Of a stretch of DNA of 64,000 nt, positions 32,454-45,401 are shown piece by piece; position 1 is the first letter of the stretch, and each line of letters starts with the position of its first letter. The notes below the pieces were generated by a model. It searched no databases, was not told the origin of the DNA, and was given only the letters and a program-made list of their open reading frames with translations. The position numbers were made by a program, and so were the translations under genes. Source of the DNA: Paraburkholderia sp. ZP32-5. Lineage in GTDB: Bacteria; Pseudomonadota; Gammaproteobacteria; Burkholderiales; Burkholderiaceae. The stretch spans positions 682,001-746,000 of the forward strand of contig NZ_JAJEJP010000001.1 in NCBI RefSeq assembly GCF_021390495.1, in the 5' to 3' direction.

Positions 32454-32673
32454 CGGGGCGCAAATCGATCCGCGCGATTAAAGCTTGAAGTCGTTGCTAT
32501 GCCCAATGGATAGCGCACGCGAGTGTTGGCGCCGCTTCGATCGAAATCCCTTCTGCGGATCTACAGGACGCTTGCGGGATGCCGATAAAGAAGAGTCAGT
32601 TTCCGGTAGCTCATCGTTAAATTTCCTCGCGCGTAGAACAGCGCCGCTAACAGCAAACACGACAGAAGACGAC

Positions 32674-34542
32674 ATGACCGCGGAACAACTCAGTGAATGG
32701 ATCGAACGGTCCAACGACATCAATTTTCGGTTGCTGCAGACTCAGGCGCGCTCATCGCTCGGTCTCGTTCCTTTTATAGGAGCGGGGGTATCGCGCGCCT
32801 ATGGATTCAAAGACTGGAAAAGTATTCTGCGTGCCGCCGCGCCGCCCTACGCGATCGGGGCAGTCGATGCGGCGCTCAGCGCGAACGATTACGAAGGCGC
32901 CGCCGAACATCTGCTCGAAAAACTCGGCGCGGATGGATTTCAAAGCATGGTGACGGCGCTGTCGGGCGATCAGCAGCTCGCGGGGTTTGACGTTCTCACC
33001 GGACCGGCCACGTTGCTGCCGTTGATTGCGGAAGGTCTGGTCGTTACAACCAACTTCGATGGCGTGCTCGAGCGGGTGTTCGACGAAGCCGGCGCATCAT
33101 TCGAGTCCGTGATTTCGGGACCTCGGCCTGATCTGACGATCGTGGCGCTGCAGGAAAACCGGCACGCGCTGATCAAGCTTCACGGCGATTGGCGGGACCG
33201 CGTCGGCAGGACCTTTGCGAAGTCGGACTACGACGCTAACTACGGCACGGCTCAACCGGGCAAAAAACGTGAGTTGCTGGATGGTCTTGAGCGGTTGTTG
33301 TTTTCCAGCAGGTCGATGTTATTTCTCGGCGCAAGTCTGAACGCGGATCGGACCGTGGAAATGCTGAAAGAGGTGCACAACGCCTACGCCGGCATTCGGC
33401 ACTTCGCGATTTTGAGCGCACCCAGCGAGGACAACCTGGAGACTCGCGAAGCTCAACTGCGAGATTGCGGAGTACTGCCGTTGTGGTACCAGGTCGATCA
33501 CGATGGGGACCATAACCGTCAGGTCGACAAACTGCTGCGAGAAATTATCGAGCGGATGTCGGTCAGGAATGTCGAGTTGCCGAAGCCTGCTGCGGCGGGT
33601 GCCACGACGGCTCCGACGTCGGCTGCCGTAAAGCCGGTGCCATTCACGCAACCGCAGCGCACGTCGGTCGCCGAGAACCTTGATGTCCATTTCGAGAGAC
33701 TGGTTGGCGACATTGAAAGAGGCGCGGTGACATTCTTTCTTGGCTCGGCGATCCACACGCCGACCCGATTGATGGCCAACGAGTTTTATAAGAGATTGGC
33801 GATTCTGTTCGATTGCACCGCGCTCGACACCGACAATTTCGCGGTAGCGCAATTTATCGCCGACCGGCATGGCCGAGACACACTCGACGCGCAGATCTGC
33901 CGATTCTTCGAGCAAACCGATTTGATGCCTCGCGTGACGCACGAGGTGTTTGCGAACTGGAACCTCTATAACGCGAAGCGCGGCAAGCCGCTGCCATATC
34001 CGACCGTCATCACGACAAACTACGACGACATTCTTGAGCAGACGCTCAGTGCGTCGAATGTTCCTTATCACCTGTTCTCTTACCAGGCGACGGGTGCTCA
34101 TAAAGGGCTGTTTTATCACCGCACGCCGGGCGGCGAATTGCGTGTTATCGAGCGCCCCAAGAATGTCACGGCGCTTGAAGAGCCCGGCTTTATCGTTGTG
34201 AAATTGAACGGAGGGATGGATTTCCGCAATCAGATCCCGACGACTTTCGTGACGACGAGGCTCGACTACTGGGATCTTGCCGCACGCATCCCTCAGGTCT
34301 TGCCGGCAATCGTCAGGAAGCAGCTTTCTTCCAGTCGATTGCTATTTCTTGGGCACGGTCTCGCCGCGCAGGATGTCGAGGCACTCGTGCGGTATACCCA
34401 CCTGGGCCGGCCCGAGGCAAAGTCCTGGGCAGTTACGCTCAAAAGCGATCATCACGCGTATTGGCTGCAGTGCGGGGTCGAAATTCTGCAATATGACGTC
34501 AACGAATATGTCGGCGAACTGGGTGCCCGTTTACTTGGGTGA
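32674..34542 (+). CDS. Tandem SIR2-like domain protein
   Basis: This 622-residue cytoplasmic protein contains two SIR2-like (NAD-binding) domains in one chain. Domain 1 (about 28-295) has PFIGAGVS at 33-40, TTNFD at 125-129, KLHGD at 168-172 with the expected catalytic His170, and MLFLGASLNADRT. Domain 2 (about 348-620) repeats the order with FFLGSAIH at 354-361, TTNYDD at 447-452, KLNGG at 510-514 and LLFLGHGLAAQDV. Here Asn512 stands where His is expected and the GAG loop is altered, so this copy is probably inactive. A Pro/Ala/Thr-rich linker joins them. Bacterial SIR2-like proteins often deplete NAD as anti-phage effectors. No helicase, Argonaute or TIR partner is adjacent. ATG 32674 gives the shortest full domain; the longer frame from 32485 is low-quality. 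Function is inferred only. Confidence 0.75.
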   Translation: MTAEQLSEWIERSNDINFRLLQTQARSSLGLVPFIGAGVSRAYGFKDWKSILRAAAPPYAIGAVDAALSANDYEGAAEHLLEKLGADGFQSMVTALSGDQQLAGFDVLTGPATLLPLIAEGLVVTTNFDGVLERVFDEAGASFESVISGPRPDLTIVALQENRHALIKLHGDWRDRVGRTFAKSDYDANYGTAQPGKKRELLDGLERLLFSSRSMLFLGASLNADRTVEMLKEVHNAYAGIRHFAILSAPSEDNLETREAQLRDCGVLPLWYQVDHDGDHNRQVDKLLREIIERMSVRNVELPKPAAAGATTAPTSAAVKPVPFTQPQRTSVAENLDVHFERLVGDIERGAVTFFLGSAIHTPTRLMANEFYKRLAILFDCTALDTDNFAVAQFIADRHGRDTLDAQICRFFEQTDLMPRVTHEVFANWNLYNAKRGKPLPYPTVITTNYDDILEQTLSASNVPYHLFSYQATGAHKGLFYHRTPGGELRVIERPKNVTALEEPGFIVVKLNGGMDFRNQIPTTFVTTRLDYWDLAARIPQVLPAIVRKQLSSSRLLFLGHGLAAQDVEALVRYTHLGRPEAKSWAVTLKSDHHAYWLQCGVEILQYDVNEYVGELGARLLG

Positions 34543-35263: not shown

Positions 35264-36799
35264 ATGAGCAACCTGGCAAACAACTTGCACCTGATACAAG
35301 GGAACATATTCGGCGGATTCAATAAGGACTTTCAGGATTTTATCTTTCTGAAGTTCAAGTCGGCTTCTGCGGGGCGGGCGTGGATTGCGCGGCTCGCATC
35401 GGATGACTTCGATCCTGGCGTCGCCGGAAGCAACAGCGCGGAAGTGCTCAATTTCAACGGTCAATTCAAGGCTCTGCTGGCGCAGGGCCTCGAGCCGGAA
35501 AAATATCTTGCCGCATCCTGGGCGAACGTTGGGCTGACATTCGCTGGTCTCAAAGCACTCGGCATCAAGTCCGCCGACCTGGATCTCTTCCCGGAAGAAT
35601 TCAAGGAGGGTATGGCAGCACGGGCCGACTTGCTTGGCGACCGCGACTCCAGCGCGCCCGACAAGTGGAATGTGCCTTTCAAGAATCTCGACGACGTGCA
35701 TGCGTTGCTTATTGTCGCGGCCGATTCCGATGCCTTGCTAAAAGCGCGAGTCGATGCGATTAAAGACGACAGCACTTTTGCACCGGGCGTGGATATTCTT
35801 GGCGTGGTATGCGGACGGGCACGTCTCGGCGAGGCCAGCGGTCACGAACACTTCGGCTTCAAGGATGGTGTATCGCAGCCGGGAATACGAGGCGTGACGC
35901 CACCGAGCGACCCCATCGGCAACCCAAACCAGGGGCAGCCGGGTCAAGACTTGCTCTGGCCCGGGGAATTCGTGCTGGGATATCCGACGCAAATCGATCA
36001 TGCCGATCCCAACGTTGACGGTCCCAATCCGAACGCCGGCCCACTTAGTGTTGCGAAGCCGGCCTGGACGTCAAACGGTTCATACCTTGTTTTCCGACGA
36101 CTCGAGCAGGACGTGCCGAACTTCGAAAGTCACGTACGCGAGTTGGCACTTGCCAATAACATTTCAGCCGAACTAATGGGAGCGAGACTGGTGGGGCGCT
36201 ACAAGAGCGGATGCCCACTCGAAATGCGCAGCTTCGCACCCGATCTCGCCACCGGGTCCGGGGGCGATCCTGGCCTTGCCAACCCGCAACTCACCGACAA
36301 TGACAACTTCAACAACAACTTCGAGTTCGGTGAGGACGCGGACGGAGAAATTTGTCCACTTGCCGCGCACATTCGCAAGGCTTATCCGCGCGATGAGCAG
36401 ACGACGAGCAAGGCCGCGGACAGCGAAAGTATCACGCAGACCCACAGGATTTTGCGGCGCGGCATCGCGTATGGAGGTTCGATCGGAGATAAGGTCAACG
36501 GAAAGGTGAGCGACCCCCGTGGGCTGGTGTTCGTTTGTTATCAGCGAAGCATCAAGGATCAGTTCGAGTTCATCCAGACACATTGGGTCAACGAAGAGAC
36601 TTTCCCTCTATTTCCGTCGAGCCGCCCCACACCTGGTGTCGATCCGATCATTGCTCAAAATGCTAAAGGTTCGTTTCAGGTAGGAAAAAGCGCGGCTGCG
36701 ATAACCGTGAAGCACTTCGTCAGAACCGACGGCGGTGCTTATTTCCTTGCTCCGTCAATCGCTGCATTGCAAGACATCGGCGCGGGCAAACATAGCTGA
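35264..36799 (+). CDS. DyP-type heme peroxidase
   Basis: This 511-residue protein is a long-form dye-decolorising peroxidase. The GFKDGVSQPGIRG segment at 198-210 holds the family GxxDG motif with catalytic Asp201. The probable heme-proximal His369 lies in LAAHIRKAYPR. The distal Arg is in HRILRRGIAYGG (residues 394-405). It uses H2O2 to oxidise substrates through a buried heme. The length matches class C/D (fungal-like) DyPs rather than short EfeB types. There is no Tat or Sec signal (it starts MSNLANNLHLIQG), so it is predicted to be cytoplasmic. GAAGGAG precedes ATG 35264. The GH13-oxidase fusion follows by 134 bp on the same strand and would supply H2O2. Confidence 0.93.
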   Translation: MSNLANNLHLIQGNIFGGFNKDFQDFIFLKFKSASAGRAWIARLASDDFDPGVAGSNSAEVLNFNGQFKALLAQGLEPEKYLAASWANVGLTFAGLKALGIKSADLDLFPEEFKEGMAARADLLGDRDSSAPDKWNVPFKNLDDVHALLIVAADSDALLKARVDAIKDDSTFAPGVDILGVVCGRARLGEASGHEHFGFKDGVSQPGIRGVTPPSDPIGNPNQGQPGQDLLWPGEFVLGYPTQIDHADPNVDGPNPNAGPLSVAKPAWTSNGSYLVFRRLEQDVPNFESHVRELALANNISAELMGARLVGRYKSGCPLEMRSFAPDLATGSGGDPGLANPQLTDNDNFNNNFEFGEDADGEICPLAAHIRKAYPRDEQTTSKAADSESITQTHRILRRGIAYGGSIGDKVNGKVSDPRGLVFVCYQRSIKDQFEFIQTHWVNEETFPLFPSSRPTPGVDPIIAQNAKGSFQVGKSAAAITVKHFVRTDGGAYFLAPSIAALQDIGAGKHS

Positions 36800-36933: not shown

Positions 36934-39900
36934 ATGGGCGTACTTCTGCAGGGCTTTTTCAAGTTGCCGCCGAACCGTGCGTTGCCGTCGCCAGCGGATG
37001 GCAGTCAAAGGACCTGGTGGTGGGACCGATTGGCCGCGGAGGCTCACGACCTGGGCCTTGCCGGCTTCACTGCTGTCTGGCTGCCGCCCGTGCTCAAGAC
37101 GGCATCGGGGGCCAACCAGGGCGCGGATGGCTACGGTGCATTTGACGACTACGACATCGGCTCCAGGCGGCAAAAGGGATCGGTGCAGACGCGCTACGGA
37201 TCACGCGAGCAGTTGCAACGCTGCGTCGCTGTTCTGCGTGCCAACGGACTCGATGTGTACCTGGACATGGTGGAACATCAAAGATCAGGCGACACGACGC
37301 CTTTCGTGTTTCGCTATCCCGGGGCAGACGGTTCGCCGAATCGCGGACGCTTCCCAAAGGATCCGTCCAATTTCGTTGGAGCACACGCGCCTCAGGTGCC
37401 TCGCGACCCCAACCTCGGCGGACCGGTCGCCGATGATTTTCCGTTCGGACGCGAACTGGCGCCGATCAACGCGAAACCGTCGCGCTATGTTTTCAACAAT
37501 CTCATCGCTGCCGCTGACTGGATGACGCGCGCACTCGACGCGCAGGGTTATCGGATCGACGACGTGAAAGGGCTTTCGACAGACTTTCTGCTCCCGTTTC
37601 TGAATAGCAAAGCGATGGCGGGAAAGTTCGCTGTCGGAGAATTCTTCGATGGGAACCGTGCGCTGATCAACCAGTGGATATTCAATCCAAAAGGGATGGC
37701 GGGGCGCCCGAGCGCGTTCGACTTTCCATTGAAGTTCCTGCTCAATGGCATGTGCAACAATCCCGGTCGCTTCAACATGGCCGACCTCGATCATGCGGGG
37801 CTGGCCGGCATCTCGCCGATGAACGCGGTCACGTTCGTCGAGAACCACGATACGGACCTCCAGAGCGCGCAGAAGATCGTCGCGAACAAGATGTTGGCCT
37901 ATGCCTACATCCTGACCTCGGAGGGGTATCCGTGCGTGTTCTACAAGGACTACAGCACCAGCCCCGAATGCTACGGGCTCAAGCCGCAAATCGATAACCT
38001 CATCTGGATCCACGAGGTGTTGGCCGCTGGCACGACGGTGCAGAGATGGAAGGACTTCGATGTCTTTGCCTATGAAAGAAAGGGCGGTCCGCATCTCCTG
38101 GTGGCGCTGAACAACGATCCCGGCGGCATGCGAACGATCCGGGTGGACACCGGGTTCGGTTCCAACGTCCTGTTGCACGACTACACGGGACATGGGGCTG
38201 ACCTGATGACGGACGAGACCGGCGCGGTGACGGTGAGCGTGCCCGTGAACTCGAACGGATTGGGATACGTCTGCTATAGCCGCAGTGGTCAGGATAGGGC
38301 GTTGGCCCCGGCATCGCATGGCGTGAGCCAGGATTTCGAAGGTGCGGCCGACCTCGACATCCTGCCTTGCAGGAACGGCACGACAGTCGACGCAGGCAGG
38401 ATATGGTGTGCGCAAGGCTCGCCCGTCACGGCGACATTGACGCTCGATCGTTCGGGTTGGAACGCTTCGTCCAGAGTAAGCCTGGAGCTGCTGGCTCCCG
38501 ACAACATTCAAAAGGAAACGATCACGCTGACGAGCGCGAATGCGCCGACGCTGACAACGACTGCGGGCAAGGAAGGTTTTTACACGCTTCGAGTGACCGC
38601 GGCTGGGTTGCCTGCGTCGAACGCGGATCACCAGTACAAGGTCTCGGCCAGCTTTAAGGCCCCCTTGAAACTGGGACTGGAGACGACCGCTCCCGAGCCC
38701 GATCCGGCCAGACTGGGACGTTGGTCGACGCCGATCGACCTTAAAAACGTCGCGATCCACGCGCATCTGCTGCCGACGGGCAAAATTCTTTACTGGGGCC
38801 GTCGAAAAGAGTTCGGCTCCGATGTCTTTGCCACGCTCAACGACCACGTCTCCCAAACCTACTTATGGGATCCGGAAACCGGGACCAGCACCGAGACGAA
38901 GAACCAGCCGACATTGAAAGACGGCACCACCGTCAACCTGTTCTGCTCCGGTCACACGTTCCTCGCGGACGGAAGATTGATGGTCGCGGGAGGGCATCTG
39001 TTCGACAGCCAGGGCGTCAACCAGAGCTGCATCTATGATCCCGCGACGGATCTGTGGACAGCCGAAGAACCGATGAACAACGGCCGGTGGTACCCCTCTG
39101 CCGTGACGCTGCCCGACGGCGGAGCGCTGGTGTTGTCCGGGTCCTTTGCATCAGGTCCGTTGCAACCGCCACCGAACAATACCGTCGTCAACCCAACGCC
39201 GCAGGTCTGGCGAGGGACCGGATGGCAATCGCTGCACGACTTCGATGATGGGTTGACGCTGTTTCCGCGGCTCCACATCGAGCCAAAGCAGGGACATGTT
39301 TTCATGTCGGGCGCACAAGGAGAAAGTTTCTTTCTGGATACGAGCGGTGGAGGCGCCTGGATACGTGGCCCGTCTCGCGCGCTGGGTCTTCGGGATTACG
39401 CACCATCAGTGATGTACGACACGGGCAAGGTGATTTACATCGGTGGCGGTCTTGACGCCGGTACGAACCTGCCCGCGAGCGGTGCCGAAACGATAGATCT
39501 GGGTTCCCCGAATCCGGCGTGGCACCCAACCTCACCAATGCATTTTCGGCGGCGCCAGCACAACGCGACGATCCTTCCGAACGGCACCGTGCTTGTCACC
39601 GGTGGAACCCAAGGGCCGAACTTCAACGATGTGGATATCGGTTCCCCGATCCACGCGGCGGAAATCTGGGATCCGGCAACCGGAACGTGGACCATCATGG
39701 CGGAAGAAGCGGTTGATCGTTGCTATCACTCGACCGCGGTGCTGCTTCCCGACGGACGCGTATTCAGTGCCGGCGGTGGCGAATACGCTCCCGAAAACAA
39801 CGTGGCAAATCCGGCGAAGGACACGCACTCGAACGCGCAACTATTCTCTCCGCCGTACATGTTTCGTCAGCGTCCGACTTTCTCGGGCGCGCCGGACGAG

Positions 39901-40791
39901 ATCTTCTATGGCGACGCAGTCACGCTGCAAGTTGCAAACGCAATCACAATCACGACAATAACCTTGATACGGCTTGCGTCGGTCACGCACTCATGCGATC
40001 AGAACCAGCGGTTAAGCAAGCTCACCTTCGAAAAGGGCGCCGCTACGTTGAAGGTCACGGCACCAGCGAACCCAAACGTCTGTCCGCCGGGTCACTACAT
40101 GTTGTTCGTGGTGGACGCCGAAGGAACGCCTTCCGTGGGCCATATTGTGCGCATCGCAGCGCGTCAGGCCGCGCCGGCGGCGTTCGTGCCGAGGGGCGTC
40201 GTTTTCAACGAAGCGCGGCCCGGTCCCGTCGAAAAAGACGTGGAGACGCGTCGAACGGCGACAACGCCGCTCGTCACCGTGGGGATCACGCCGACCTGCC
40301 TGTATGGACTGGCGGGTTGCTGGGGCGGCGCGAAGGGCGCGTTGCGCCGGCTGACAGGAGTCGAAAGCGTTCTCGAGGAGGCCAATGCCTATACGTCGAC
40401 TGCTTCGGTCTTCCTGAAGGATGACAGACTGCCGGATCTCGACATCTGGCGCCAGGAATTTGGGCGCATCGCCAATGCATCGTACTCATTGCGCGGGATC
40501 GAGATGAGCCTGAGCGGCACGATCGAGGAGAAAGATGGATTGCTGATATTGCTCGGCAATCAAACAAGGCCAACGGTCTGGCTGGCACCGCTCGAGGCCA
40601 GCGCTAAAGTGCAATGGAATTTCGCTACGAAATCAAACTGGCCGCTGGAACCGGACGAAGCAACCGCCTACGAGAGACTGAGACAGCTTCTGAGTGACCC
40701 GATGCGCGAAGGCGCGTCGGTAACGGTCACCGGTGCGTTGTTGAAGCATGAACATGGATTCTTCGTCGAAGTTAGAACCTTCACTGTCTGA
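36934..40791 (+). CDS. GH13 alpha-amylase / AA5 copper radical oxidase fusion with HMA-like C-terminus
   Basis: The giant protein has 1285 residues from ATG 36934 (AGGGG upstream); a TTG 11 codons earlier was rejected. Residues 1-450 are a GH13 barrel with GYRIDDVKG (nucleophile Asp209), VGEFFDG (acid/base Glu236) and FVENHDTD (Asp306), followed by the amylase beta-domain. Residues about 465-580 are a beta-sandwich. Residues about 590-1078 are a galactose/glyoxal-oxidase-like Kelch propeller plus C-terminal Ig-like domain. All AA5 copper and radical positions appear: Cys671 (NLFCSGHTF), Tyr720 (GRWYPSAVTLPDGG), Tyr931-His932 (RCYHSTAVLLPDG) and His1019 (VTHSCDQNQR). Residues about 1112-1285 hold TCLYGLAGCWGG and ALRRLTGVESVL, reminiscent of heavy-metal-associated folds. 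No signal peptide is seen. It follows the DyP gene. Confidence 0.88.
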   Translation: MGVLLQGFFKLPPNRALPSPADGSQRTWWWDRLAAEAHDLGLAGFTAVWLPPVLKTASGANQGADGYGAFDDYDIGSRRQKGSVQTRYGSREQLQRCVAVLRANGLDVYLDMVEHQRSGDTTPFVFRYPGADGSPNRGRFPKDPSNFVGAHAPQVPRDPNLGGPVADDFPFGRELAPINAKPSRYVFNNLIAAADWMTRALDAQGYRIDDVKGLSTDFLLPFLNSKAMAGKFAVGEFFDGNRALINQWIFNPKGMAGRPSAFDFPLKFLLNGMCNNPGRFNMADLDHAGLAGISPMNAVTFVENHDTDLQSAQKIVANKMLAYAYILTSEGYPCVFYKDYSTSPECYGLKPQIDNLIWIHEVLAAGTTVQRWKDFDVFAYERKGGPHLLVALNNDPGGMRTIRVDTGFGSNVLLHDYTGHGADLMTDETGAVTVSVPVNSNGLGYVCYSRSGQDRALAPASHGVSQDFEGAADLDILPCRNGTTVDAGRIWCAQGSPVTATLTLDRSGWNASSRVSLELLAPDNIQKETITLTSANAPTLTTTAGKEGFYTLRVTAAGLPASNADHQYKVSASFKAPLKLGLETTAPEPDPARLGRWSTPIDLKNVAIHAHLLPTGKILYWGRRKEFGSDVFATLNDHVSQTYLWDPETGTSTETKNQPTLKDGTTVNLFCSGHTFLADGRLMVAGGHLFDSQGVNQSCIYDPATDLWTAEEPMNNGRWYPSAVTLPDGGALVLSGSFASGPLQPPPNNTVVNPTPQVWRGTGWQSLHDFDDGLTLFPRLHIEPKQGHVFMSGAQGESFFLDTSGGGAWIRGPSRALGLRDYAPSVMYDTGKVIYIGGGLDAGTNLPASGAETIDLGSPNPAWHPTSPMHFRRRQHNATILPNGTVLVTGGTQGPNFNDVDIGSPIHAAEIWDPATGTWTIMAEEAVDRCYHSTAVLLPDGRVFSAGGGEYAPENNVANPAKDTHSNAQLFSPPYMFRQRPTFSGAPDEIFYGDAVTLQVANAITITTITLIRLASVTHSCDQNQRLSKLTFEKGAATLKVTAPANPNVCPPGHYMLFVVDAEGTPSVGHIVRIAARQAAPAAFVPRGVVFNEARPGPVEKDVETRRTATTPLVTVGITPTCLYGLAGCWGGAKGALRRLTGVESVLEEANAYTSTASVFLKDDRLPDLDIWRQEFGRIANASYSLRGIEMSLSGTIEEKDGLLILLGNQTRPTVWLAPLEASAKVQWNFATKSNWPLEPDEATAYERLRQLLSDPMREGASVTVTGALLKHEHGFFVEVRTFTV

Positions 40792-41113: not shown

Positions 41114-43564
41114 ATGACACGTTCAGGACGATCTCCGCTTGCGCGATGCATAACGCATCGTCAGAAATCAGCCGGACGCATCTGGCTCGTGATCGGCATT
41201 TCATTCGCAGAACTCTACCTGACGCACACCGCGTGCGCGGCGGGCGTCCTACCCAACGGCGGCCGGTATGTCGCCGGCACCGGCACGATAGCGGGCACGA
41301 GCAACGGACTCGTGATCACACAACCCGGTTCGACACACGGTGTGATCGACTGGAACAGCTTCTCGATCGGCGCGAACAACAGCGTCACGTTCAATAACGG
41401 CAATGGCGCGACGCTGAACCGGGTGACGGGTGGTTCGCCCTCCGCGATCCTCGGCAGGCTCAGCGCAACGGGCAGCCTGTATGTGATCAATCCGCAGGGC
41501 GTCGTCGTGGGGCCATCCGGAACGGTGACGACGGGCGGACGCTTCGTAGCATCCACGCTGGACGCAAGCGACAGCGCGTTCATGAACGGCGGCGCGCTTG
41601 TTCTGTCGGGCAATTCGGACGCGAGCGTGATCAACCTCGGCAAGATCAGTTCGACCGGCGGCGACATCTTCCTGATCGCGCGACACGCCGTGACCAACGC
41701 CGGCACTATCACAGCGCCGAACGGCACGGCCGAACTGGCCGTCGGCGAACAGGTGCTGTTGCAGGACTCGGCCAGCAGCAAACAGGTGCTCGTGCAGACC
41801 GGTAGCCAGGGTACGGTTCTCAACAGCGGAAGCATCGCGGCCGCGCAGATCAGCCTGCAGGGCGCCGATGGCAACGTGTTTGCGCTCGCCGGCGGTGGCA
41901 CGCGCATCCGCGCGACGGGCACGGCGAATCGCGACGGCCATGTGTGGCTCGTCGCCGACGGCGGCCGTGTCGAGCAGTCGGGCGTGATCACGGCCACCAA
42001 CGCAAACGGCAGCGGTGGAACGGTCGACACCGACGCGGCGCGCATGGCGTTCGGCGCCACGGCAGCCGTGCATGCGGGCGAATGGAATCTCTCGACGCCC
42101 AGCTTCACGATCGACCAATCCGCTGCACGCGCACTGGGCGGCAGCCTGAATTCAGGCACTTCCGTCCATGTGGCCACGACAGGCACGACAGGCGCGACGG
42201 GCGACATCGACGTCGCATCGAAACTGAACTGGAGCGGTCCCGCTTCGCTGACGCTCGCCGCGTACCGCGACGTGTCGATCAGGAGCGGTGCGACGATCGC
42301 GAACCAGGGCGCGGGCAATCTCAGCTTGCGCGCCGACGCAACCGGCATCGACAACGGCGGCGGCATCACCAACAAAGGCACGCTCGACTGGTCGAAGAGC
42401 ACCGGTGCGCTGAGTGCTTTCTACGACATGAACGGCACATACGTTGCCGGTACCCAACTGAGCAATCCGGCATGGATGCCCGCCGCATTCAGCGGCCTCG
42501 TTACGCAGATCACCCCGTACAGGCTTGTGAACTCGCTGACCGATCTGTCGAATGTCGCCAACGATCTCAACGGTAACTACGCGCTCGGCAGGAACATCGA
42601 TGCGAGCGCGACGAGCAGCAGCCCCTTCGCTCCAATCGGCAACGTTAGCGCACCGTTCACGGGGCAGTTCGACGGACAAGGCAATACGATCACCTCGCTC
42701 ACGCTGGGCGGGTTTCTGATTTACGGCGGGGACGAACCGCCACAGCCACTAGTGGGCATGTTCGGTGCAATCGGTACCCAGGGTGTCGTACGCAACCTCG
42801 GCATTTCGGGCACGGCGAATTCGACTAACGTGAGTGGGCTTATCGGATACCCGAGCTTCTATATGGGCATACTTGCCGGCCTGAACAACGGTACTGTCCT
42901 GCGCGTGAACACGGCCGGTACGGTGGCGACCCTGAATCCCAGCTCGGGGCTTCCGATCGACTTTTCGTCAGCCGGTGGGCTCGTGGGCGTCAACGCCGGC
43001 TCGATCCTGCGTTCTTCGAGCAGCGCCGCCGTCAGCTCGGGGGGGGCTTGGGTCGGTGGTCTGGTGGGCGAGAATGACGGCCTGATCAGCCAGTCGTTCG
43101 CCACGGGTCCTGTCGTGTCGTCGGGTTACAACGCCAAGGGCGGTGGTGGCCTCGCCGGCTCCAACACTGGCACGATCAGCCAGTCTTATGCAACCGGCTC
43201 TACGACGTTTCCGGGCTGCCGCTCCAGTCAATGCGGGGGGGCCGGCCTCGTCGCTTATAACTCGGGAACAATCACCCAGTCATTCGCAACCGGTCCGGTG
43301 AACCAGCCGGTGTTTTATGGACCGATCGGCATCGCGCGGTCCAATGTAGGCACGATTGCGAACGATGTGTACTGGAACACCGACACCACGGGCGCCACAA
43401 TCGGCGTCGTGTACGGTACGCCGATTCCCGCGGCGAACGGGCTGACCACCGCTCAGATGAGCACGCCGACGTCTTTCGTCGGGTATGACTTCAGCTCGAC
43501 GGGCGTGTGGGCGATGCCTGCCGGCGCGACGCATCCGGTGCTGCGCTGGCAACTGACGCAATAA
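41114..43564 (+). CDS. TpsA-type filamentous haemagglutinin-like exoprotein with GLUG repeats
   Basis: This 816-residue exoprotein has a signal peptide of about 43 residues (ending HTACAAGVLP). The TPS secretion domain follows: TQPGSTHGVIDWNSFSIGAN, then LYVINPQGVVVGPSG, the NPxG motif recognised by the TpsB pore. The body is a predicted beta-helix. Near residues 480-760 it carries several GLUG-type repeats (GLVGENDGLISQSFATGPVV, GLAGSNTGTISQSYATGS, NSGTITQSFATGPV). GLUG repeats occur in bacterial surface and IgA-protease-like proteins. It is likely a secreted adhesin or biofilm protein. It is short for an FHA-type adhesin and has no C-terminal toxin. The cognate transporter gene lies convergently downstream, which is unusual. 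Confidence 0.88.
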   Translation: MTRSGRSPLARCITHRQKSAGRIWLVIGISFAELYLTHTACAAGVLPNGGRYVAGTGTIAGTSNGLVITQPGSTHGVIDWNSFSIGANNSVTFNNGNGATLNRVTGGSPSAILGRLSATGSLYVINPQGVVVGPSGTVTTGGRFVASTLDASDSAFMNGGALVLSGNSDASVINLGKISSTGGDIFLIARHAVTNAGTITAPNGTAELAVGEQVLLQDSASSKQVLVQTGSQGTVLNSGSIAAAQISLQGADGNVFALAGGGTRIRATGTANRDGHVWLVADGGRVEQSGVITATNANGSGGTVDTDAARMAFGATAAVHAGEWNLSTPSFTIDQSAARALGGSLNSGTSVHVATTGTTGATGDIDVASKLNWSGPASLTLAAYRDVSIRSGATIANQGAGNLSLRADATGIDNGGGITNKGTLDWSKSTGALSAFYDMNGTYVAGTQLSNPAWMPAAFSGLVTQITPYRLVNSLTDLSNVANDLNGNYALGRNIDASATSSSPFAPIGNVSAPFTGQFDGQGNTITSLTLGGFLIYGGDEPPQPLVGMFGAIGTQGVVRNLGISGTANSTNVSGLIGYPSFYMGILAGLNNGTVLRVNTAGTVATLNPSSGLPIDFSSAGGLVGVNAGSILRSSSSAAVSSGGAWVGGLVGENDGLISQSFATGPVVSSGYNAKGGGGLAGSNTGTISQSYATGSTTFPGCRSSQCGGAGLVAYNSGTITQSFATGPVNQPVFYGPIGIARSNVGTIANDVYWNTDTTGATIGVVYGTPIPAANGLTTAQMSTPTSFVGYDFSSTGVWAMPAGATHPVLRWQLTQ

Positions 43565-43643
43565 CCACGCGCGGAGTCAGTCAGTCGGGCTGCTTTCCGA
43601 TAGGCCGCTAGGTGTCCGCGGCCAGACGTCGACAACCGACGCT

Positions 43644-45401
43644 TCACGTTCCGATCGACACATATAACAGCACGATCGGCGCCTTCGAGCCATTTGGCGT
43701 CGCCGGGCGTAACGGTGCGCCATACGTGCAGCGCAAATCCACGAACCGTGACCATTGGAAACGCACGCCCGCACCGACGCCCGCGAGCAGACCGGGGTTA
43801 TTTTCCGCTGGCTGGTCGATCGTGTTCCATAGCCGGCCGGCGTCGAAAAACACGAAGGGCTGCACAGCCGCATTGCTCGCGCCGAGCGGGATCGCAGGCG
43901 TGCGCACCTCCGTCTGAATGTTCCAGCCGCGATCGCCCTGCGTGACATAGGGTTCGTAGCCTCGCACGCTGGACTCCCCGCCAAGCCCCATCTCCTCGCT
44001 CGGCAATAACGTGTTCGGAGTCCACTGAAACGTTCCGTTCGCGATCAGCGTGAAGCCGGCGCCAAGCGCGGTGGCGCGGGACGCCGTCAACTGCATATAA
44101 ATGTACCGGGCCGTCGCGCCCTGCCGCGCGGCATTGAATGCCGCGTCCTGGTTGCTGCCGTCCAGTCCGCCCGGACTGGCGACGAGTGTCGCCGCGGCGT
44201 GCGCGGTGCCGGCCTCGGTCGGCTTGCTGATGTCGTAAGCCAGCACGAACTGGTGGATGTGCGTATTCGAGTTGAAGACCTGCGAGCCGCCGAATTCCAG
44301 ATCGTTGTTGCTGCGCTTGAAGTCGTATCCGATCTGGATCAACTGTGCCGTGTCCGTGATGGTCGGCAAACGCAAGTCGTAGCGAAAGCTCAACTGCGCG
44401 GAAATGCCCGTTTGCCCATACGCGTCGGGCAAGCGTGGCGTGCTTTGCGCGTAGACGCCGAACAACTCGATGCTGTCGAGCCATGGCAGTGGCGCTGTGT
44501 AGTTCAGCGCGTGCGCGGTGAAGCGGGCGCGGTTGGGGCGGCCTTCGATATCCGGATTGCCGCTGAAGAAATCGTTGCTGGCCGTGAATTGATAGGCGAT
44601 CTGCTGATCGAGACCAAACAGGTTGCCGTAGCCTACGCCTGCAAAAAAACGATCGCGGCCGAGATCCGGCACACCTTGATTGTCGTAACCCGCGCTGACC
44701 CGAAGCGGCAGACGGTCTTCGGTTTGCAACACGACGTCGGTGGTGCCCGCCGCATCGCCGGGCGTGAAAACAGCATCGACCCGTCGATAAGGGTTCGCGT
44801 TCAGCACGGCGAGCCCCTTCGACACCGACGCTTGCGGGATCGGTGCGCCGGGCTCGAGCGGCATTTCACGTTCCAGCAGACTGTTCGAAAAGTGGGTGTT
44901 GCCGCTTGCATGAACCCGACCCAGCCTGAATTCGGCAATGGCGATATGCACGACGCCCGAACTGACGTCCTGTTCCGGCACGTAGACGTCGACGAGCGGC
45001 TTTCCCGCCGCCCGGTAGTGCGCGACCACCGCGCGGCGTATTTCGGCGAGGCGACCGAACGTCAGCGGCTTGCCGAGGCCCGTCGCGAAGCTCTGCAGGA
45101 AGGCGTCGTCGAGTACTGGCAGTCCTCGCGCGATGATGGGTGCGGCCGGCGTCGGCGATGAAGGCATCGACGCGCCGGCGGGTTCGAAGACGAGCCCGGC
45201 CAGCCGGTCGACCGCGATCCGTGCGGACTCGATCTGCGTTTCTGATGACGATGGTGACGATGCGCTTCGCGGTACCGGTGGCGCGGGTTGCGGTGCCAGG
45301 TCACGCCATGCCTGCGCCGCTGCCGGTGAGGGATGCATGATGACAGCGATGCACGCCGCGATTATCAGAAAACCCGTGCAGTCGGTCGATCGCGGTTTCA
45401 T
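43644..45401 (-). CDS. TpsB-type (ShlB/FhaC) outer-membrane transporter
   Basis: This 585-residue partner transporter has a signal peptide (about 1-29, ending SPAAAQA). Two POTRA domains follow (about 75-150 with GKPLVDVYVPEQDVSSGVVH, and 155-225 with RLGRVHASGNTHFSNSLLER). The rest is a 16-strand barrel. FxxG-type and MGLGGESSVRGYEPYVTQGD segments near residue 480 contain the conserved VRGY of loop 6, which reaches into the pore. The last residues YVSIGT are not the usual terminal aromatic. It exports a TpsA protein, most simply the one encoded opposite it, whose stop is 80 bp away. It has its own promoter, since the two genes are convergent. Confidence 0.9.
   Translation of the reverse strand: MKPRSTDCTGFLIIAACIAVIMHPSPAAAQAWRDLAPQPAPPVPRSASSPSSSETQIESARIAVDRLAGLVFEPAGASMPSSPTPAAPIIARGLPVLDDAFLQSFATGLGKPLTFGRLAEIRRAVVAHYRAAGKPLVDVYVPEQDVSSGVVHIAIAEFRLGRVHASGNTHFSNSLLEREMPLEPGAPIPQASVSKGLAVLNANPYRRVDAVFTPGDAAGTTDVVLQTEDRLPLRVSAGYDNQGVPDLGRDRFFAGVGYGNLFGLDQQIAYQFTASNDFFSGNPDIEGRPNRARFTAHALNYTAPLPWLDSIELFGVYAQSTPRLPDAYGQTGISAQLSFRYDLRLPTITDTAQLIQIGYDFKRSNNDLEFGGSQVFNSNTHIHQFVLAYDISKPTEAGTAHAAATLVASPGGLDGSNQDAAFNAARQGATARYIYMQLTASRATALGAGFTLIANGTFQWTPNTLLPSEEMGLGGESSVRGYEPYVTQGDRGWNIQTEVRTPAIPLGASNAAVQPFVFFDAGRLWNTIDQPAENNPGLLAGVGAGVRFQWSRFVDLRCTYGAPLRPATPNGSKAPIVLLYVSIGT

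Follow-up and report, generated by a model that had tools for sequence, protein, structure and literature searches.

The stretch of Paraburkholderia sp. ZP32-5 analysed here (contig NZ_JAJEJP010000001.1, positions 682,001 to 746,000; all 64,000 nucleotides are referred to as the window) encodes a 1285-residue protein in which an alpha-amylase-like GH13 domain is joined to a galactose/glyoxal-oxidase-like domain of family AA5. This pairing, first proposed in a preliminary description made from the sequence alone, was confirmed, and its catalytic positions are invariant across 114 listed fusion relatives, indicating a conserved architecture. The protein lacks a signal peptide. Judged from its sequence, it may be a copper radical oxidase directed to alpha-glucans that makes hydrogen peroxide (H2O2) and is paired with a peroxidase, a reading to which we give an even chance. 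Its parts are as follows.

36934..40791, + strand: fusion protein of 1285 residues, in the order GH13, beta-sandwich, AA5 and C-terminal domain (CTD), signal-less; relatives share the MGVLLQ start
36934..38280, + strand: GH13 alpha-amylase-like domain, residues 1-449, from alignment with solved alpha-amylases
37558, 37639 and 37849, + strand: GH13 triad Asp209, Glu236 and Asp306, respectively
37264..37290, + strand: GH13 region I, DMVEHQRSG replacing DxVxNH
38281..38688, + strand: beta-sandwich (immunoglobulin-like), residues 450-585, found in unfused GH13 relatives too
38707..40161, + strand: AA5 copper radical oxidase (CRO) domain, residues 592-1076
38944, 39091, 39724 and 39988, + strand: AA5 copper site, Cys671, Tyr720, Tyr931-His932 and His1019, respectively
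39145, + strand: Phe738 of the AA5 domain, occupying the place of galactose-oxidase Trp290
40249..40788, + strand: CTD, unnamed, residues 1106-1285, with invariant Cys1122 (40297) and Cys1129 (40318)

When 7996 candidate proteins were scored, 2518 passed a threshold of 1e-10; the 120 listed (jgi, ena, lgn and ncbi sources, several of them named metagenome-assembled genomes, MAGs) share 55-86% identity. The 237 proteins that were sorted comprise 114 fusions with a complete N-terminus, 85 AA5-CTD proteins lacking GH13, 37 fragments and a single protein without the CTD; fusions and unfused AA5-CTD proteins counted below are those listed 114 and 85. Among named genomes, a first scan found no relative, while a second, with alignment, found 29 loci. 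Full fusions occur in MAGs of Acidobacteriaceae (L019), Chitinophagia (L020) and Verrucomicrobiota (L021 and L038), and in an Acetobacteraceae MAG (L022) the fusion is cut by the contig end; the same architecture is thereby found in named genomes, all MAGs, of four phyla. The remaining loci hold GH13 without AA5 in frame, mostly with the sandwich.

The complete GH13 catalytic set described earlier was upheld. HMMER alignments place Asp209, Glu236 and Asp306 on the triad positions of solved alpha-amylases, with an Arg and a His nearby kept, and the triad, Arg207, Lys212, His305 and Tyr67 are invariant in 114/114 fusions. GH13 is the best-conserved portion of the fusion protein. The NCBIfam alpha-amylase model PRK09441.1-3 scores 276 bits over residues 2-449, below its curated cut-off of 516. 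The aligned triad is shared with PRK09441-type bacterial alpha-amylases (PDB 2die and 1w9x, of CAZy subfamily GH13_5), whereas the fusion differs from them in falling under the curated cut-off, in its altered region I and in being signal-less. Region I reads DMVEHQ in place of DxVxNH, with His-Gln replacing Asn-His. An alignment gap in this region is set in one of two ways depending on the aligner, so His115 could substitute for the lost region I His. Asn-His is kept in 11/11 signal-bearing GH13 relatives with the motif read; among signal-less unfused GH13 proteins, L029 keeps it, L023, L039, L047 and L058 are without the pair, and L041 was unmatched by the pattern. Residues 126-185 are unaligned in the three alignments to solved alpha-amylases. 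The predicted structure has a low predicted local distance difference test score (pLDDT) across much of residues 1-354, so the barrel was not confidently modelled, and structure searches for the GH13 and CTD folds returned lists filled by AA5 and other propellers, uninformative on both parts. A stretch resembling the GH13 part was also seen on a plasmid of 6.8 kb (NZ_CP111003.1, 3681-5078; H17) attributed to E. coli, an odd host for it.

Residues 592-1076 match galactose-oxidase-type families, with GlxA and galactose oxidases as best PDB sequence matches, and contain both the Kelch propeller and the galactose-oxidase-like early-set domain. The score against the GlxA equivalog NF052501 is 237 bits, below the curated 800. 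All five crosslink and copper positions of the preliminary description are present: Cys671, Tyr720, Tyr931, His932 and His1019 align by HMMER with the copper-site residues of solved galactose oxidase and are invariant in the 114 fusions and the 85 unfused AA5-CTD proteins. At the Trp290 place, 97/114 fusions have Phe, and most of the 85 unfused proteins have either Phe (46) or Tyr (24). Colletotrichum alcohol oxidases likewise carry Phe at this position, and galactose is therefore not the obvious substrate. Two genomes from the class of L019 (G835 and G839; L069, L071, L086 and L087) each contain five matches of galactose-oxidase type, a few of them arranged in tandem.

The CTD spans about 180 residues and has Cys1122 and Cys1129 invariant in all 114 fusions and all 85 unfused AA5-CTD proteins. 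On a FastTree of 144 AA5 domains its presence is a single split, so that the CTD marks one clade. A Pfam match was obtained for 0/6 members tried at E <= 10 with filters on, PF00403 (HMA) thus being unmatched. The predicted start of the CTD follows a beta-alpha-beta-beta-alpha-beta order, and comparison with the HMA profile gave an hhalign probability of 7-8.5% (P 0.004-0.005; 0/150 column shuffles equal it). The CTD is without a CxxC motif, its two cysteines lying seven apart, and only Cys1129 aligns with the HMA pair. Given the missing Pfam match, the missing CxxC and the hhalign value, HMA membership is not established. Stand-alone CTD matches number 23, of which 15 lie on contigs <3 kb, and so are probably pieces of AA5-CTD genes, and eight on longer contigs, which may be free CTD genes.

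The missing signal peptide, regarded at first as an oddity of one protein, proved instead to characterise the sampled AA5-CTD clade. By a simple rule based on hydrophobicity, 2/114 fusions (within the GH13 start) and 7/85 unfused proteins (five via a later stretch) are flagged; by eye, 0/114 and 2/85 (P0145 and P0198) remain signal-like, the start sites of metagenomic proteins being predictions. A test read from the DNA, which tries all upstream starts and is more lenient than the protein-based one, is passed by 0/4 CTD rows and by 27/30 determinable rows without the CTD (26/29, as L069 and L086 are the same gene; eight open and five short rows excluded). Sampling is uneven here, since CTD proteins came mostly via a CTD-bearing query and the non-CTD rows are mostly of one class. 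As CTD presence is one split, the absence of a signal is one historical event retained since, rather than many. Armatimonadetes, Tumebacillus and Planctomycetaceae have unfused GH13-sandwich relatives whose signal peptides stop immediately ahead of GVLLQ, GVLMQ or a similar sequence. The fusion begins M-GVLLQ, at the cleavage site of these secreted relatives, and its signal has thus been removed cleanly. Signal-less unfused GH13 proteins also exist (L023, L029, L039, L041 and L047).

An overlooked signal upstream of the ATG was rejected, as the frame opens just 24 codons earlier and a hydrophobic stretch is absent. Export by the two-partner pair encoded downstream (41114-45401) was considered and set aside, no TPS domain having been found in the fusion. 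The LodA-family oxidase relative in print has a Tat signal (PMC3948610), and accounts of LodA secretion lend no support to export without a signal. With the AA5-CTD clade almost throughout without a Sec- or Tat-like signal, the protein would act in the cytosol, or exit through lysis or some other route; of these, a cytosolic location is the simplest reading.

The fusion is rare among the kin of its host, being present in 1/24 genomes of the genus, 1/299 of the family and 1/398 of the phylum. A second genome of the family has an unfused GH13 relative (L049) identical to that of Caballeronia (L041). In the class of L019 the fusion occurs in 1/399 genomes, together with one AA5-CTD gene. At 1e-100, no AA5-CTD protein was found in 249 genomes of the Bradyrhizobium order, and only L021's own among 240 genomes of its phylum; 0/72,556 plasmid records carry the fusion over 80% of its length, while 95 match partially. 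The block formed by the SIR2, DyP-type peroxidase and fusion genes has a GC content of 0.57-0.61, against 0.63 for the window, and the DyP gene is just as isolated (1/40 relatives at 1e-40). This rarity and the lower GC content point to a probable horizontal origin of both the fusion gene and the DyP gene.

In the GH13 tree, 29/30 fusions fall in one clade, along with two very long, unsure unfused rows, and fusion P0025 joins an unfused Bradyrhizobium protein. We read the trees as one old fusion, whose GH13 half would since have been lost or exchanged several times. Other N-terminal parts are also seen on AA5-CTD: FG-GAP-like repeats, an alpha/beta-hydrolase (P0121 only) and an unnamed module of about 140 residues, which recurs at residues 1-140 of P0158, P0170, P0193 and others. 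Two AA5-CTD proteins (P0169 and P0205) come from MAGs labelled as lichen fungi (Bogoriella and Bathelium), by bacterial contamination or transfer.

The genes surrounding the fusion are these.

32485..34542, + strand: SIR2-like protein, upstream of DyP, matching anti-phage SIR2 families (LmuA 1e-19, ThsA 8e-16); association with the fusion unproven
35264..36799, + strand: DyP-type peroxidase of 511 residues, signal-less by eye, TIGR01413 at 126 bits (cut-off 100.5); likely partner
41114-43564, + strand: two-partner secretion exoprotein (TPS domain), convergent with the ShlB-type transporter
43644-45401, - strand: ShlB-type transporter, convergent with the TPS exoprotein

The DyP gene lies on the same strand and stops 134 bases short of the fusion start, and no + strand terminator-like site was reported between them, which is weak evidence. 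DyP was rejected as a fixed partner of the fusion, since it was not found in the flanks of five other fusion loci, with distant matches in 2/8 genomes searched. Other redox genes are found at related loci. Animal-type haem peroxidase genes adjoin the L019 fusion, the L048 AA5-CTD gene and the signal-less GH13 genes of L023, L029 and L041; they are rare in the kin of the window's host (2/31 genomes, its own genome having none). A LodA-like gene, under Pfam's cut-off, is present in L021, with relatives in L023 and L037. PQQ-like proteins were recognised by eye in L019, L023, L029, L039, L041 and L047, the part concerned having no Pfam match. Those of L029 (11708-13438) and L047 (5903-7813) adjoin signal-less GH13 genes, and the L029 protein starts where the L047 form seems to be cut to its mature length, which may be another instance of a signal cleanly lost.

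A peroxidase or selected redox gene lies near 9/12 signal-less GH13-family loci and 0/10 signal-bearing ones (Fisher 0.0005; 0.002 with near copies merged; 0.04 for peroxidase alone, 5/12). These P values are too good, because the loci had been seen before the count was made, its query genes came from AA5-CTD or signal-less loci, favouring that side, and the two groups differ in taxonomy. In signal-bearing L025, a flavin/halogenase-like match was left out of the redox tally. The count omits L033, L035 and L046 (start broken or truncated), L040 (with a signal but truncated, such a neighbour not found), L042-L045 (distant and sandwich-less), L058 (short), L048 (no GH13) and L049 (the L041 gene). 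Two of its three misses (L020 and L022) have short flanks, and L037, cut inside GH13, may or may not be a fusion. CHAT-SIR2_2 proteins adjoin the fusion in L021 and L038 and gave no match to the window SIR2 at 1e-5. Genes for nSTAND1-WD40, CHAT-SIR2_2 and C25-peptidase-like proteins were seen near fusion or AA5-CTD genes (L021, 1256-5050 and 5059-7104; L048, 10694-12238); such neighbours are typical of conflict systems.

For the fusion to act on alpha-glucans, the GH13 domain would bind glycogen, starch or maltodextrin, probably still slowly cutting or rearranging it. The AA5 domain, after copper-dependent crosslinking of Cys671 and Tyr720, would then oxidise a primary alcohol or an aldehyde, which might belong to the glucan or its fragments, coupled to conversion of O2 to H2O2. 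The adjacent DyP would maintain the active, radical form of the oxidase and/or consume the H2O2, and the CTD may help copper supply where the fusion works. The peroxidase-CRO precedents of Colletotrichum and Streptomyces, compared below, argue for AA5 as a working H2O2-making oxidase held active or followed by DyP. In the preliminary description the protein was to cleave or transfer an alpha-glucan and then oxidise the product. The two domains and their invariant catalytic positions bear this out in part; the state of region I and the 85 AA5-CTD proteins without GH13 do not. Several points indeed weigh against a glucan-directed oxidase. The Asn-His pair of region I occurs in 0/114 fusions, its Asn position being His in 112 and Asn in two, and the following residue Gln in 78 (the query included) and His in 36. 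This may mean weak hydrolysis, and alpha-glucan cleavage by GH13 is uncertain: its triad is perfect and it is the part best kept, yet region I is altered. Galactose-type sugars may be poor substrates given Phe738, and an H2O2-making copper oxidase in the cytosol would be unusual. DyP was not found in the flanks of the five other fusion loci. In an AA5 tree comprising 121 rows, namely the query, one in every four fusions, the 85 unfused proteins and six outgroup rows, fused and unfused proteins are intermixed and the fusion label changes 16 times, at least six of them forced by well-supported branches; with this label coming and going and so many AA5-CTD proteins lacking GH13, tandem action would not be obligatory.

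The same observations lend themselves to another explanation, which we consider possible though less probable than the one above: GH13 would have lost its hydrolase activity and serve only as an alpha-glucan-binding address, an exchangeable module of a general AA5-CTD oxidase acting on some other alcohol or aldehyde. The loss of the Asn-His pair in all fusions, the existence of unfused AA5-CTD proteins and of other N-terminal modules, and the 16 label changes favour it, but the seven invariant GH13 residues (Asp209, Glu236, Asp306, Arg207, His305, Lys212 and Tyr67), the region I His itself kept in 36/114 fusions and the strong conservation of GH13 argue against it. It is improbable that the protein belongs instead to a signal-less H2O2-producing set for conflict with cells or phage, in which oxidases (AA5, perhaps LodA-like) and peroxidases would be released together. 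The animal-type haem peroxidases near L019, L023, L029, L041 and L048, the LodA-like gene of L021 with its relatives, and the CHAT-SIR2 (L021 and L038), nSTAND-WD40 (L021) and window SIR2 genes point in that direction; against this, the window SIR2 is unmatched to the CHAT-SIR2 proteins, L021 and L038 are near copies, the gene set varies among loci and the LodA-family oxidase in print bears its Tat signal. A fusion of two adjacent genes by read-through or misassembly could be imagined, as the GH13 and AA5 halves also occur separately. The reading frame (36934-40791, +) has no internal stop and its ATG is the start used by relatives; together with the 114 fusions, which rule out an accident of this kind, and five complete or near-complete MAG loci in four phyla, this makes such an origin extremely improbable.

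The glucan-directed oxidase can be set in a broader proposal, which we put forward tentatively and think rather doubtful: a large clade, not yet described, of CROs that are cytosolic or leave the cell by non-classical means, with their own metallochaperone-like CTD replacing GlxA-type extracytoplasmic copper delivery, whose GH13 branch, its signal cleanly lost, would carry out oxidative processing of intracellular alpha-glucan (glycogen) with a peroxidase partner. The fusion belongs to a large and apparently unstudied family. The described CROs used for comparison are secreted or outward-facing, and GlxA receives its copper outside; a clade without export signals but with two invariant CTD cysteines raises the questions of how and where the Cys-Tyr cofactor is built and what the bacterium gains. 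The GH13 branch would be a natural single-protein source of oxidised glucans and H2O2.

In agreement with the preliminary description, keyword searches of open-licence PubMed Central (PMC) texts gave no characterised or printed GH13-AA5 fusion. The nearest printed case reportedly joins an AA5 alcohol oxidase to a CE3 domain that is inactive, in Burkholderia pseudomallei (Mazurkewich, FEBS Lett, 2023, cited in PMC11267884); it also combines AA5 with a carbohydrate-active domain in the Burkholderiaceae, but the partner is CE3 and not GH13. What we call new is thus the arrangement, in which two known enzyme families are combined in a conserved, signal-less protein, nowhere found described, with an unnamed CTD. 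By word search, 'oxidase' is absent in two thirds of the text of a review of prokaryotic alpha-glucan enzymes (PMC11046441). Compared with AA5 enzymes, namely fungal galactose, alcohol and glyoxal oxidases and bacterial GlxA (PDB 9g43, 1gof, 5c86, 9n3u and 4unm), the fusion is without a signal peptide or membrane anchor, has Phe at the Trp290 place, and carries an added CTD and a fused GH13; GlxA has both a signal and an anchor (PMC11022532). CROs require a peroxidase for maximum in vitro activity, and the peroxidase and CRO genes of the Colletotrichum Perox-AlcOx pair lie head to head (PMC9770985). A haem peroxidase gene likewise adjoins a CRO gene at the fusion locus, but the fungal pair consists of a class II peroxidase and an oxidase that are both secreted, whereas the fusion locus has a DyP and no signal peptides. 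In Streptomyces, the DyP DtpA is needed for GlxA maturation, so that a DyP is again functionally tied to an AA5 oxidase; the DtpA-GlxA system is extracytoplasmic, with a Tat-exported DyP and copper supplied via Sco (PMC4736821), in contrast to the DyP and fusion of the window, which are both signal-less.

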